Assembly: GCA_025356035.1 (NCBI GenBank)
Contig: JANXYN010000089.1
Location: forward strand, 1-45,075
From: Geobacteraceae bacterium
Lineage (GTDB): Bacteria; Desulfobacterota; Desulfuromonadia; Geobacterales; Geobacteraceae
Reading direction: 5' to 3'
DNA length: 45,075 nucleotides
Shown: positions 793 through 19,166 of the stretch, in pieces
Numbering within the stretch: position 1 is the first letter of the stretch
Layout of the letters: the number at the start of each line of letters is the position of its first letter
Translations under genes and position numbers: made by a program
The notes under the pieces: model-generated
What the model saw: the letters and a program-made list of their open reading frames with translations, nothing else
What the model was told of the DNA's origin: nothing
Database searches by the model: none

Positions 793-2828
793 CTAATATG
801 ATACTGCTGCTATGGCGGCAATCTGGGCAGCCGTCAACGGGTTTGATCCCGTCGAGCGGTATTGACTCATTTGACTGAAGGATGCAATTGCCGAGGTGAT
901 CTGGGTAGCCGTCCTCGGTCCAAGCGAACCATGGCAACCGAGGCAGCTACTGTTATAGAACGCCAAGGCGTCAAAAGCCGCAGCTGCGGTGGTAGCCGTG
1001 GCCTGGGTCGAAGCGGCACTCGCGCCGGCGCTGTTCGTCGCAGTGACGATGTAGTAGTAGGCGGTAGCGTCAGCGAGCCCGGTCTGGACGTAGGGGGTGG
1101 TTGCTCCGGCGATCTTGGTCCCGGTGGTGGTTGTCACGCCGGTCTTGGTGGACCAGTAGATGTTGTAGGCAGTTGCGCCGGATACCGCCGACCAGGCGAT
1201 GGTCACCTGTTTGGTGCTGCCAGTGGCGGTCACGCCGGTCGGGGCTGCGGGAACGGCAGGAGGCGGTGCGTTGGTGGTTGCGCTGGCCTGGGCCGAGGCG
1301 GCACTTTCGCCGACGTTGTTCACCGCGGTGACGATGTAGTAGTAGGTAGTGCCGGCGGAAAGCCCGGTCTGGACGTAGGGGCTGGTGGTCCCGGCGATTC
1401 TCGTTCCGGTGGCGGTCGTTACGCCAGACTTAGTGGACCAGTAAACGTTATAGGAGGCCGCGCCGGAGGCGGCGTTCCACAGGATGGTCGACTGGTTGGC
1501 GCCGCCGGTGGCCATTACCCCGGTCGGGGCTGCGGGAACGGTCGGGGCTGGTGCCGGGGTGAGGGTGGTAGCCGCCACCTGGGGCGACGGAACGCTTTCG
1601 CCGGCGCCGTTCACGGCGGTAACCACGTAGTAGTAACTGGTAGAGTCCGCGAGTCCGGTCTGGACCGCGGGACTGGTGGCCCCGGCGATCTTGGTCCCGG
1701 TGGCCGGGGTTACCCCCGGGGTGGCCGCATAGTAAATGTTATAGGTGGTCGCGCCGGATACTACCGGCCAGGAAATGGTCACCTGCTTGGTGCCGCCGGT
1801 GGCCGTTACTCCGGTCGGGGCTGTGGGGACGGTTGGGACGGGTGGCGCTGCAGTGGTGGTCGCAGAAACCTGGATGGCAGCGCTTTCGCCGCCACTGTTT
1901 ACAGCGGTAACCACGTAGTAGTAAGTGGTGCTTGCGCTAAGCCCGCTCTGGAGATAAGGGGCGGTTGCTCCGGCAATCTTGGTTCCGGTGGCGGTCGTCA
2001 CCCCGGAGGTAGTGGAATAATAAACGTTGTACGAGGTCGCATTGCCGACGGCGTTCCAGGAGAGAGTCACCTCGCCCACGCCGCCGGTGGCGGTCACGCC
2101 GGTCGGAGCTGCGGGGAGGGTGGGAGACGGCGGCATGCTGCCGGAGTTAAAGGTCCCGTGGGCGATGTCGGAAATCTTGCTGGTGAAGATGACGGCACCG
2201 GTTTGTGCGTTGGTGATCGTCAGGGAACCGCTTACCATGGCTATTTTCACGTTATCCAGCATCTCGTCGAGGCCGAGATGGTTGGCAATATACTGGGACG
2301 TGATCGGATTGGCGTCTTGTGCGTTGTACAGCAGGAGAAGGGGTTTCAGTTCCGCCATTAGGTTGTTGACGGCACCCTGGAGATTGTCTCCGATTTTATG
2401 GAGAGTGGCCGGATCGGGATTTGCGTAGACCTGCGCCGGGTCGTCAACGCCTGCGGCACTGGCTACCAACACATTGGAGAGGGGATTAATGTTGGCGGTG
2501 CCGGTTCCGTCGGCATAGGAATGCAGCGTGTAGTGCGTTCCGCCGGCGGTTCCGGTGCCTGGAGAATATAGGGGGCCTTCATGCCGGTGACATCGATGGC
2601 GTAGGTGCCATCGTTGCCGATGACCGCGGTTTTCACCTGCGGAGCGGCTGAGGCATCTTTCAGGCTTACCTGGCCTGCCAGGGTGGCCCCTACCGAGGCG
2701 ACCCCGCCCACTACCTGGGACGAAAGCGCCCCGTTGCCGCTGCCGCCGCAACCTGAAAGGGATAATGAAAGTGCTGTTAAGATGAGCAACGCTACTACTC
2801 CGAAACGGTCGATGCTTTTGAGCTTCAT
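793..2828 (-). pseudogene. Lipoprotein with four fibronectin III repeats and a C-terminal c-type heme site, apparently frameshifted
   Basis: Translation should start at the ATG at 2828, which follows a GGAGG ribosome site. The alternative start at 2915 has none. The N-terminus is a lipoprotein signal with lipobox LSGC. About 95 residues in, near 2554-2560, the frame breaks: the text ...APYILQA is continued as TGTAGGTHYTLHS only in another frame. One missing base in GGC-ACC would restore it. Downstream come a helical domain, four near-identical FnIII repeats of about 90 residues (each starting PAAPTGVTATGG or similar) and CLGCH, a single heme c attachment motif. The protein is probably surface or periplasmic and may help extracellular electron transfer. 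Whether the frameshift is real or a sequencing error cannot be told here. The gene lies downstream of two riboswitches. Confidence 0.8.
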
Positions 2829-2949: not shown

Positions 2950-3065
2950 ATAAAAAGCCGGGTCGCGAATATCTAGGTGATATTTCGGCGACCCGGCTAT
3001 CTTCAAGAGACCCTTGGGCTTTCCGTCCCATCCTCGCGGATGGTTTAGTATTTTCGTCTATCTAC
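2950..3065 (-). promoter_or_regulatory. GEMM-I riboswitch, proximal copy (cGAMP-type, GEMM-Ib) with terminator
   Basis: Read on the minus strand, the RNA has the GEMM core: AAACCATCCGCGAGGATGGG (P2 stem with GNRA loop GCGA), then GACGGAAAGCC, a short P3 hairpin, and AGCCGGGTCGCC. The last segment also forms the 5' arm of a long terminator stem (2957-2997) followed by a T-run. The 5' flank ACGAAAATACTAAACC has A-rich bases where c-di-GMP aptamers carry AGGGC. From memory this matches Geobacter 3',3'-cGAMP riboswitches. It lies 120 bases upstream of the heme lipoprotein start. Confidence 0.8.
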
Positions 3066-3256
3066 TGCTGGGGTTTGTTGAATATGTTTACGTTAGCAAT
3101 AGCGGCCATTTGGTGTCAAGAAAAATTGTTACCTAGTTGTTTCCGCGCTGTAAATCCTCGATGTCCGGGTCAACTGCAGCAAACCATTCACCCTATAATT
3201 TTCGTTACGTGTCGCCACCTCCTTCTGTTTGCCCCCGCTTTATCTGTGCCCGGACA

Positions 3257-3367
3257 CAAAAAAGCCGGGTCGCGAATATCTGGTGATATTTCGGCGACCC
3301 GGCTGTCTCGGTGAGACCCTTGGGCTTTCCGTCCCATCCTCGCGAATGGTTAAGTATTATCGTCTAC
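3257..3367 (-). promoter_or_regulatory. GEMM-I riboswitch, distal copy (cGAMP-type, GEMM-Ib) with terminator
   Basis: This is a second copy of the aptamer-terminator unit, nearly identical in the core (AACCATTCGCGAGGATGGGA, GACGGAAAGCC, AGCCGGGTCGCC). P3 differs (GGGTCTC/GAGAC). Its terminator stem is at 3264-3303, followed on the minus strand by six Ts (plus-strand As 3258-3263). About 190 bases separate it from the proximal copy, so a transcript must pass two ligand-controlled terminators before reaching the lipoprotein gene. Confidence 0.8.
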
Positions 3368-3602
3368 CACAACCATAACGGTAAGGTATAGTTTCCCTTT
3401 TACCCTATTAGCACAGTCAAAGTCAAAATAAATTGTTCTAACGAAATCCGGTGTTGCGAACCGAGTTTTCCCTTTCGGCATCTGCTCCGTAACTCCGGTC
3501 ATCCGACTGCAGCGAGGAGCTGGCAGAACGTCTGCCCCCTGGGAGGTAGTGGGGTAAAGGCTTGACAACGCAGGCTGAACGTCGCACCTCGCACGGATTT
3601 AT
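3368..3602. other. Non-coding stretch upstream of the riboswitches
   Basis: This should hold the promoter for the riboswitch-lipoprotein transcript. On the minus strand two overlapping TTGACT boxes occur near 3410-3425, but no convincing -10 lies at the right spacing. Short open frames here look spurious. Nothing else is recognised. Confidence 0.3.
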
Positions 3603-17646: not shown

Positions 17647-18918
17647 TCATTTGAAAAAAGCGACCATGTAGTCCAGGTTTTCTTTGTACTCGAGGTTCCC
17701 CAGATGGCCGCCGCGCGGGTAGATCTTGGCCCGCTCGCCGAAGAGCTGCCGCAGGTAGTCAAGCTCCGCCTTGGTCAGGATGAAGTCGTTCTCGTTAGTC
17801 ATTACGCCGAACTTGGCAGATGACTTCAGATACCCCTCGATGCTGGTGAGGCTCTGGGAGTTGATGAGCTCCTGCTTGGTGAGTCCCGGCCGCCGCTTCT
17901 GGAAGTAGGGATAGAAATACTCGTTAAAATAGTCGAAGAAGCTCAAATGGGTGGAGACCAGGAAATAGTCGGAAAGGGAATCGGTGGGACTCAAGACCCG
18001 GTTCTTCGGCACGACATAGCCGCTATTGGTCATCACGTCGGAGGAGAAGATCATGCCGGCCAGGTTGATGCGGAAGGTGAGCCCGATCAGTCCGGCGGTT
18101 TCTTCGTGGGAGAAAAGACGCTCCGCGTAGATCGAGTAAAGAAAATCATCGTTGATGGCGACGAAGTTGCCATAGCGATAGAACTGGCTGAACTTTGACA
18201 GCATCTTGTTGAAAAAGATGCCTTGCTTCTTGGGCCCTCCGGGGATCTGCTTAAGCATGTCCTCGATCCTTGTCACCGAATTGTAGAGGCTTACCGGGGG
18301 GTTGATCATGAGTACCTTGCGGAAGTTGAAGACTCGGCGTTCCTCGTCAAGCCTCGTCACGAAGGCTGCCTGGCTAGCTCCCAGGCTATAACCGCACAGG
18401 TCGAATGAGGACACCTCGATATCGCCCTCAACCTGCTTCCAGGCTGTCTCCATCACCCGGTACAGATCAGCCGCGTCCTCGGTAAGATCGCCGGGGATGC
18501 TGCTTTGCGAGGCGGAGATAATGAAGTTGGCATGGGAAGGCGACGGCAGGGTGATGACGTGGAAGCCGGCCTGGTAGAGGGCTTTCATCATGGTCAAAAG
18601 CTTGGGAGCCCGGTCGCTGGAGCCGGCGCCGGCGATCAGAAAGACCAGCGGCGCCTTCTGCTTCTGGTAGGCGAAGGTGCAGCGCAGCCCCGTGTCGTAG
18701 AAGAAAATCGGCGGTCTCTGCCGGTCCGGGATGACATCGAGCACAAGCTGCCGGGTGCGCATCTTTGCGGGAAACTCGGGCATGAGGCTTGCCGGCGTCC
18801 CGAGTATGGTGGCTTCATACGAACCCTGAATCGGGTAGCCGTAGCCGTCATCCGCCGCAAGACTTGGCACAGACGTTAGGACGAGGCAGGCAATGAACAG
18901 CAGTCTCAGGTGCAACAT
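17647..18918 (-). CDS. Secreted alpha/beta-hydrolase-like protein
   Basis: The start at 18918 (MLHLRLLFIACL) follows ATAGGAGG and yields a Sec signal peptide cleaved after SLA. The frame from 18996 is not supported. 423 residues. LVFLIAGAGSSD resembles the oxyanion region and DLCGYSLGASQAAF contains the GxSxG nucleophile elbow; a late RGGHLGNL may supply the histidine. The exact substrate is unknown. As first gene of an operon with MlaA and an acyl-activating acyltransferase, a lipase or esterase acting on envelope lipids is a reasonable inference. Confidence 0.72.
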   Translation of the reverse strand: MLHLRLLFIACLVLTSVPSLAADDGYGYPIQGSYEATILGTPASLMPEFPAKMRTRQLVLDVIPDRQRPPIFFYDTGLRCTFAYQKQKAPLVFLIAGAGSSDRAPKLLTMMKALYQAGFHVITLPSPSHANFIISASQSSIPGDLTEDAADLYRVMETAWKQVEGDIEVSSFDLCGYSLGASQAAFVTRLDEERRVFNFRKVLMINPPVSLYNSVTRIEDMLKQIPGGPKKQGIFFNKMLSKFSQFYRYGNFVAINDDFLYSIYAERLFSHEETAGLIGLTFRINLAGMIFSSDVMTNSGYVVPKNRVLSPTDSLSDYFLVSTHLSFFDYFNEYFYPYFQKRRPGLTKQELINSQSLTSIEGYLKSSAKFGVMTNENDFILTKAELDYLRQLFGERAKIYPRGGHLGNLEYKENLDYMVAFFK

Positions 18919-19166
18919 GCGGATACCTCCTATGCAGGGGCATGACCGTTCGCCTGTCCGAACCGTCATGCGGGCTGCCACTGCGGAAATGATCATATTA
19001 TCGTGGCAAATGGTCTTTAGCTTTAGCCAGAAAGTTTCAAGAAGGTAAGTGTTGCTGCCGGAGACCTTCGAGTTGTTTCAGTATACCATGTTTCAACCCT
19101 GCCACAATTTCGCTGTACAACCGCGAATTGACACACATTATATATACCCATCAGGTTTTAAGGTTG
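18919..19166. other. Intergenic region upstream of the lipid operon
   Basis: It should contain the operon promoter on the minus strand; no clear boxes are seen. A plus-strand TTGACA at 19128 has a TATATA only seven bases later, so it is not a standard promoter. Confidence 0.3.

Follow-up and report, generated by a model that had tools for sequence, protein, structure and literature searches.

Two GEMM-I riboswitches ahead of a lipoprotein gene

At the gathering cut-off, the window (the whole stretch of 45,075 nucleotides that was analyzed) contains three Rfam matches, namely one tRNA and two copies of the GEMM-I riboswitch family (RF01051), the latter arranged in tandem on the minus strand (Table 1). 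Both copies match the complete model (positions 1–87) and exceed its gathering score of 35 in an Rfam cmscan search of the whole window, the downstream copy with 45.4 bits (E = 7.9e-6) and the upstream copy with 40.3 bits (E = 1.4e-4). Both have a P2 with a GCGA (GNRA) loop, and an alignment reveals a strong likeness between them across aptamer and terminator. The covariance search, which the first-pass annotation had suggested as a check, thus confirms the two tandem GEMM riboswitches and the coordinates it had given for them, including P2 and the GNRA loop. The pair is real and ordinary in kind: tandem cGAMP-class switches of this sort are already known from Geobacter.

Table 1. Features of the riboswitch locus in order of transcription.
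Feature	Position	Strand	Evidence or remark
Weak outer promoter candidate, TTGACT-18-TAAAAG	3397..3426	-	31 nt before aptamer edge
Aptamer of copy 1 (GEMM-I, upstream); model position 11 is A (position 20 in Vc2)	3290..3365	-	RF01051, 40.3 bits
Terminator 1, 5' arm common with the 3' strand of the aptamer	3258..3304	-	Sequence and folds
Inner promoter candidate, TTGACA-18-TAACGT, TG before -10	3090..3119	-	30 nt before edge of aptamer 2
Aptamer of copy 2 (GEMM-I, downstream); model position 11 is A (position 20 in Vc2)	2984..3059	-	RF01051, 45.4 bits
Terminator 2, 5' arm common with the 3' strand of the aptamer	2952..2998	-	Sequence and folds
FnIII/single CxxCH lipoprotein gene, frame broken at about 2580 to 2556	793..2828	-	Domains, motif, alignment

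The gene behind the pair starts with an ATG at position 2828 that follows a GGAGG motif. Its predicted product combines a signal peptide with a lipobox-like LSLSGCGG, FnIII in four stretches (PF00041) and one CLGCH motif, in agreement with its initial description as a single-heme FnIII lipoprotein. That description had missed, however, that the reading frame is broken: the alignment of the window with a homologue (L181), 70% identical over the 142-residue query, is split between two frames, which overlap at positions 2580–2556. The break may be a mutation or an assembly error, the draft consisting of 227 contigs.

Ligand class of the two aptamers

RF01051 pools the cGAMP and c-di-GMP ligand classes, so the covariance search cannot decide the ligand; its score was rejected for this purpose and position 20 was used instead. 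Model position 11 was taken as the equivalent of G20 in Vc2, the mapping being made via the adjacent conserved G-C/C-G pairs. Both window copies carry an A at this position together with a C-G pair at 21:46 (A20/CG; other combinations are abbreviated likewise). In the GEMM-Ib riboswitch of Gmet_0970, changing A to G at nucleotide 20 is reported to switch the selectivity from cGAMP to c-di-GMP (PMC6456294), and the same position serves for class assignment in PMC9481103. It is described in PMC9262584 as a selectivity factor and not a hard filter, and c-di-GMP binding by cGAMP riboswitches is cited there. Similarly, a riboswitch in front of omcST is cited in PMC6456294 as responding to both messengers, and according to PMC12285248 several genes predicted to be activated by cGAMP went up at lower cGAMP. 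Model position 14, which is a U in the upstream window copy, was considered as a further class mark and rejected, as it is A in 139, C in 32 and U in 15 of 186 pooled A20/CG copies.

The genome to which the window belongs (G000) holds 14 RF01051 copies. A structural pattern scan written in Python found all of them and gave a single match in 0.88 Mb of shuffled sequence; it replaced a covariance model of our own (R1), which was built and left unused. The scan assigns six copies to A20/CG (both window copies included), two to A20/GC (L004 and L008), five to G20/GC and one to G20/CG (L001). The two A20/GC copies, on contigs C132 and C163, bear the canonical G-C pair at 21:46, AGAG in place of AAAG and long inserts. 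The genome has a second tandem (L010/L011; contig C220, 10382–10660), made up of two identical A20 aptamers spaced 202 nt apart, whose gene is beyond the contig end. Another A20 riboswitch (L232; contig C170, approximately 17652–19094) immediately follows a GGDEF gene of the same strand and precedes a further reading frame.

The genome also contains 19 GGDEF matches, and the site is visible in 18, with the usual Asp in 16 and Ser in two. One Ser-bearing protein is a response regulator of 473 amino acids with a GGDEF domain and the motifs GHLIGS and GGDEY, which makes it a GacA-like candidate; the second Ser-bearing match (L178) is partial (profile positions 5–69 of 161) and was left uncounted. 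Because A20 is found in both copies and a GacA-like enzyme with the diagnostic serine occurs in the genome, the initial assignment to the cGAMP and not the c-di-GMP class is supported. The best reading is that both window copies act as cGAMP-class (GEMM-Ib) ON switches, with cGAMP very probably as the ligand. Their 3',3'-cGAMP would come from the GacA-like Hypr GGDEF enzyme.

Terminators and direction of switching

Each unit has a strong terminator hairpin (AGCCGGGUCGC...GCGACCCGGCU) that overlaps the 3' part of the aptamer and ends in a U run (positions 3263–3258 in unit 1 and 2956–2952 in unit 2). The upstream unit has a fold z-score of -4.24, with none of 200 shuffles folding equally well, and the downstream unit one of -4.17, with one of 200. 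A simple terminator scan, which demands one unbroken stem with a loop of 3–8, lists neither hairpin. In both units the 5' arm of the hairpin is the last strand of the aptamer (P3/P1), so aptamer and terminator are mutually exclusive; the earlier statement that the terminator is built from the 3' arm of P1 was nearly right. With the 3' arm of the terminator blocked, the best fold of the two units loses about 20 kcal/mol (-45.9 to -25.3) and about 18 kcal/mol (-42.8 to -24.5), respectively.

A terminator that shares a strand with its aptamer is the architecture of a known ON switch type, and by analogy we infer the ON direction for the window. Without ligand, the hairpin would capture the 3' strand of the aptamer and RNA polymerase would stop, while with 3',3'-cGAMP bound the aptamer would retain this strand and transcription would continue. 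In line with this, PMC6456294 reports that transcription of genes behind GEMM-Ib riboswitches dropped upon deletion of gacA, and cGAMP is said there to stabilize the anti-terminator.

Two stacked units or one long leader

The spacer from the first U run to aptamer 2 measures 198 nt and contains the inner promoter candidate. Scored with approximate sigma-70 frequencies, this site reaches 12.7, which was equaled by none of 300 crude shuffles (made in two-base blocks, not true dinucleotide shuffles). The outer candidate scores 8.8, with 38 of 300 such shuffles equal or higher. A simple promoter scan lists a weaker site in the spacer (3154–3125); it misses the inner candidate, in which only three of the six -10 bases match, and the outer candidate is absent from its listing as well.

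The score was calibrated on tandem spacers and on the sequence ahead of every A20 copy that is single or comes first, among the pooled loci listed, window included. Before first or single copies, scores of at least 9 occur in 88 of 143 regions in the forward and in 30 of 143 in the reverse direction (p = 7e-13), and the score is informative because of this excess. For tandem spacers (10 of the 63 tandem pairs have spacers too short for scoring), the corresponding counts among the pooled loci listed are 6 of 53 and 2 of 53 (p = 0.40), and the idea that inner promoters are a general habit of tandem spacers was thus rejected. The spacer of the window has the top score among these 53, and it is the only one of the six scoring at least 9 with its -10 located 20–39 nt before the next aptamer. 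Among the A20/CG leaders of the pooled loci listed, 76 of 140 score at least 10, and 68 of these 76 have the -10 at 20–39 nt from the aptamer edge; the score of the inner site is matched or exceeded by 34 of the 140.

Contig C21 of the same genome ends in a relative of the window leader (L230; 13580–13907) with 84% identity over query bases 80–411. Between the two, 54 of 60 columns are kept from the inner -35 to the aptamer and 113 of 166 ahead of that, and the promoter counterpart on C21 scores 9.2 (36 of 300 crude shuffles equal or higher). The gene behind this leader encodes a monoheme protein (PF13442) with a proline/threonine-rich linker.

With moderate confidence, we read the window as two stacked and complete promoter-switch-terminator units. 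In the proposed order, the outer promoter precedes the first switch and its terminator, the inner promoter precedes the second switch and its terminator, and the FnIII/monoheme lipoprotein gene comes last. If both promoters are used, transcripts from the inner one would cross one gate, and those from the outer one would cross two gates of the same ligand class. The first-pass annotation had suggested that two successive terminators could give a sharper switch, which is only partly supported. Both terminators are present, but many transcripts may meet only the second because a promoter-like site, at a position typical of the class, lies between the copies. The cGAMP-class reading with stacked units as the most likely layout, taken as one claim, appears probable.

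One long leader differs from the stacked units only in the promoter: the outer promoter alone would be active, and the terminators in series would form two cGAMP gates with a steeper and tighter response. A steeper response is known for tandem riboswitches with separate platforms, and a triplet c-di-GMP-I system is reported to show more digital expression (PMC9481103). The lack of promoter enrichment in tandem spacers generally and the absence of the inner site from the simple promoter scan also point to a single leader. The spacer of the window is exceptional, however, both in its score and in the typical distance of its -10, and we regard one long leader as rather unlikely.

Riboswitches at homologous genes

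Homologues of the 142-residue query occur in 28 of the 48 family genomes, its own included. Besides the window's own locus, 20 of the 29 homologue loci fetched were scanned; RF01051 reaches the cut-off in 12 of these (19 copies), six have two to three copies and eight have none. One locus (L184, G055) has three A20 copies before the homologue of the window gene; the scan version described above missed the third, and a slightly looser version was used for later counts.

These loci also bear on whether the window holds a decaying duplicate, in which switch 1 would be a remnant whose own gene is lost, the lipoprotein gene would be a pseudogene and the two switches would have no joint function. 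The broken frame at 2556–2580, the weak outer promoter and the leader relative on C21, by which such leaders do get duplicated, speak for this scenario. Yet both aptamers and both terminators are intact, two to three copies recur at 6 of the 20 scanned loci, and one shifted base in a draft of 227 contigs may be an assembly error, which leaves decay improbable. The dual-signal switch that the first-pass annotation had mentioned as an option is not supported for the window, and one copy for cGAMP with the other for c-di-GMP seems most improbable: selectivity at position 20 is not absolute (PMC9262584), the upstream copy deviates at model position 14 (U) and three relatives have G20 in the downstream copy before the homologous gene, but both window copies have A20 and the identical C-G pair at 21:46, and position 14 varies within the class.

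By position 20, the window aptamers belong to the same class (A20/A20), and A20/G20 is seen only in other genomes. Among the 12 homologue loci with RF01051, 15 of the 19 copies are A20 and four are G20. Three of the latter are located downstream of an A20 copy (L185 in G044, L186 in G043 and L187 in G050), and one is single (L181). Two more tandems of A20 followed by G20 were found (L238 in G017 and L240 in G016), in which each copy has its own terminator, as in L185–L187. At L185, L187, L238 and L240, a hairpin with a U run follows both copies (-18.5 to -23.8 kcal/mol). Since both copies are equipped with a terminator at these four loci, cGAMP AND c-di-GMP is the simple prediction.

With an exact pattern in one sequence frame, 431 A20 sites are found across 47 of the 48 family genomes and seven G20 sites across seven. 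Five of these G20 sites lie behind an A20 copy (G043, G044, G050, G016 and G017) and one stands alone (G002); the seventh (G061), at a contig start, was left unjudged, which gives six judgeable cases. A control set of 30 loci, each fetched for A20 in another genome, contains 36 A20/CG copies, and four of these take the downstream place in a tandem. The resulting enrichment of G20 behind A20 has a Fisher p of 0.0008, which becomes 0.003 when the nearly identical G043 and G044 are treated as one; it is confined to the family of the window and rests on the six judgeable cases. A general link between G20 and tandems is contradicted by the G20/CG copies found with a looser pattern in at least 117 loci from many other groups, which are all single (59 of 59); among the matches listed for at least 117 loci, 48 of 84 A20/CG copies are single. 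When 141 genomes of the order are searched with the strict G20 pattern, 10 of them contain a total of 11 sites. Four sites come from outside the family: two form a G20/G20 pair in G084, and G024 and G065 have one each, with an A20 copy 0.9–1.1 kb upstream, too distant for a tandem.

Relation to known systems

The GEMM-Ib riboswitches of Geobacter (pgcA/GSU1761 and Gmet_0970; PMC6456294, PMC8835794) belong to the same Rfam family and have A20 and a terminator-type platform, likewise with a cytochrome or surface gene behind them and a Hypr GGDEF enzyme in the genome. The window differs in its gene, an FnIII/monoheme lipoprotein with a frame that is broken in the assembly, and in having a predicted ligand. 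Tandem GEMM-Ib pairs have been described in G. sulfurreducens, including GSU2885, where two cGAMP-class copies likewise precede one gene or operon (PMC6456294); in the window, the spacer ahead of copy 2 holds a promoter-like site. Taken alone, the window pair extends a known regulon by one further heme protein that is probably under cGAMP control.

What matters more are the mixed pairs in relatives to which it led. For c-di-GMP-I riboswitches, PMC9481103 counts 347 doublets and 12 triplets and lists two-input gates. The AdoCbl/c-AMP-GMP gate of Desulfobacca acetoxidans in that paper likewise consists of serial switches with separate platforms, and its c-AMP-GMP member is recognized by the same position. 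Whereas the window is A20/A20, the A20/G20 pairs of its relatives would be a cGAMP/c-di-GMP combination. Such a pair is missing from the two-input gates in Table 2 of PMC9481103, and among the matches listed in a literature search no title or abstract start points to one, although an earlier description may exist. Mixed pairs are easily filed as ordinary doublets because RF01051 pools both classes. In engineered G. metallireducens strains, c-di-GMP and cGAMP levels are reported to shift oppositely (PMC12285248), so a leader that senses the two could track their relative amounts. The stacked-unit reading and the mixed pairs are the points that deserve bench work.

Mixed tandems across the pooled loci

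The pooled loci contain at least 63 tandem pairs at 80–400 nt. They are a non-random collection, in which L015–L043 represent the best RF01051 match per genome and favor G20/GC, and all class and tandem tallies are to be read as such. The pairs comprise at least 40 of A20/CG followed by A20/CG, at least 11 of A20/CG followed by G20/GC, at least seven of G20/GC followed by G20/GC, at least four of A20/CG followed by G20/CG (G043 and G044 counted once) and at least one of G20/CG followed by G20/CG. Among the pooled loci listed, the A20 copy comes first in all 15 non-redundant mixed pairs. Several genera from two families (f1 and f4) are represented among the mixed pairs, but the 15 are not independent because of shared ancestry at the FnIII gene.

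In all 11 pairs of the A20/CG–G20/GC kind (L015–L019, L026, L033, L089, L111, L282 and L297), both members reach the Rfam cut-off, the second member of L033 as the variant RF03167. An FnIII protein gene follows 10 of the 11 (nine match the FnIII query, and L089 was called by inspection), while L033 has another gene. Conversely, the 30 loci fetched for the FnIII protein comprise seven with a mixed pair, 12 with A20 only, two with G20 only and nine with neither.

Judged by position 20, the mixed tandems are candidate cGAMP/c-di-GMP gates. Tentatively, the order of Geobacter may harbor a family of stacked GEMM-I switches in which the base at position 20 (A or G) sets the messenger of each copy. 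In this reading, some species have the mixed pair at the homologue of the window gene, and more of them have it at the gene of a secreted FnIII protein. Mixed leaders would act as natural two-messenger gates. Serial terminators would form an AND gate before the heme lipoprotein and similar genes, while before FnIII genes a terminator under cGAMP control would come first and c-di-GMP would then govern access to the ribosome-binding site. The window would represent the variant for one messenger, in which each copy has its own promoter.

For 7 of the 10 FnIII leaders, the lowest-energy fold places the likely ribosome-binding site in a helix with a pyrimidine strand that directly follows the second aptamer; the site is paired elsewhere in L111 and mostly or wholly free in L026 and L089. 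These modeled folds suggest that the second copy likely controls translation, with either sign possible. Three of the loci (L019, L089 and L111) carry an A20-A20-G20 triplet.
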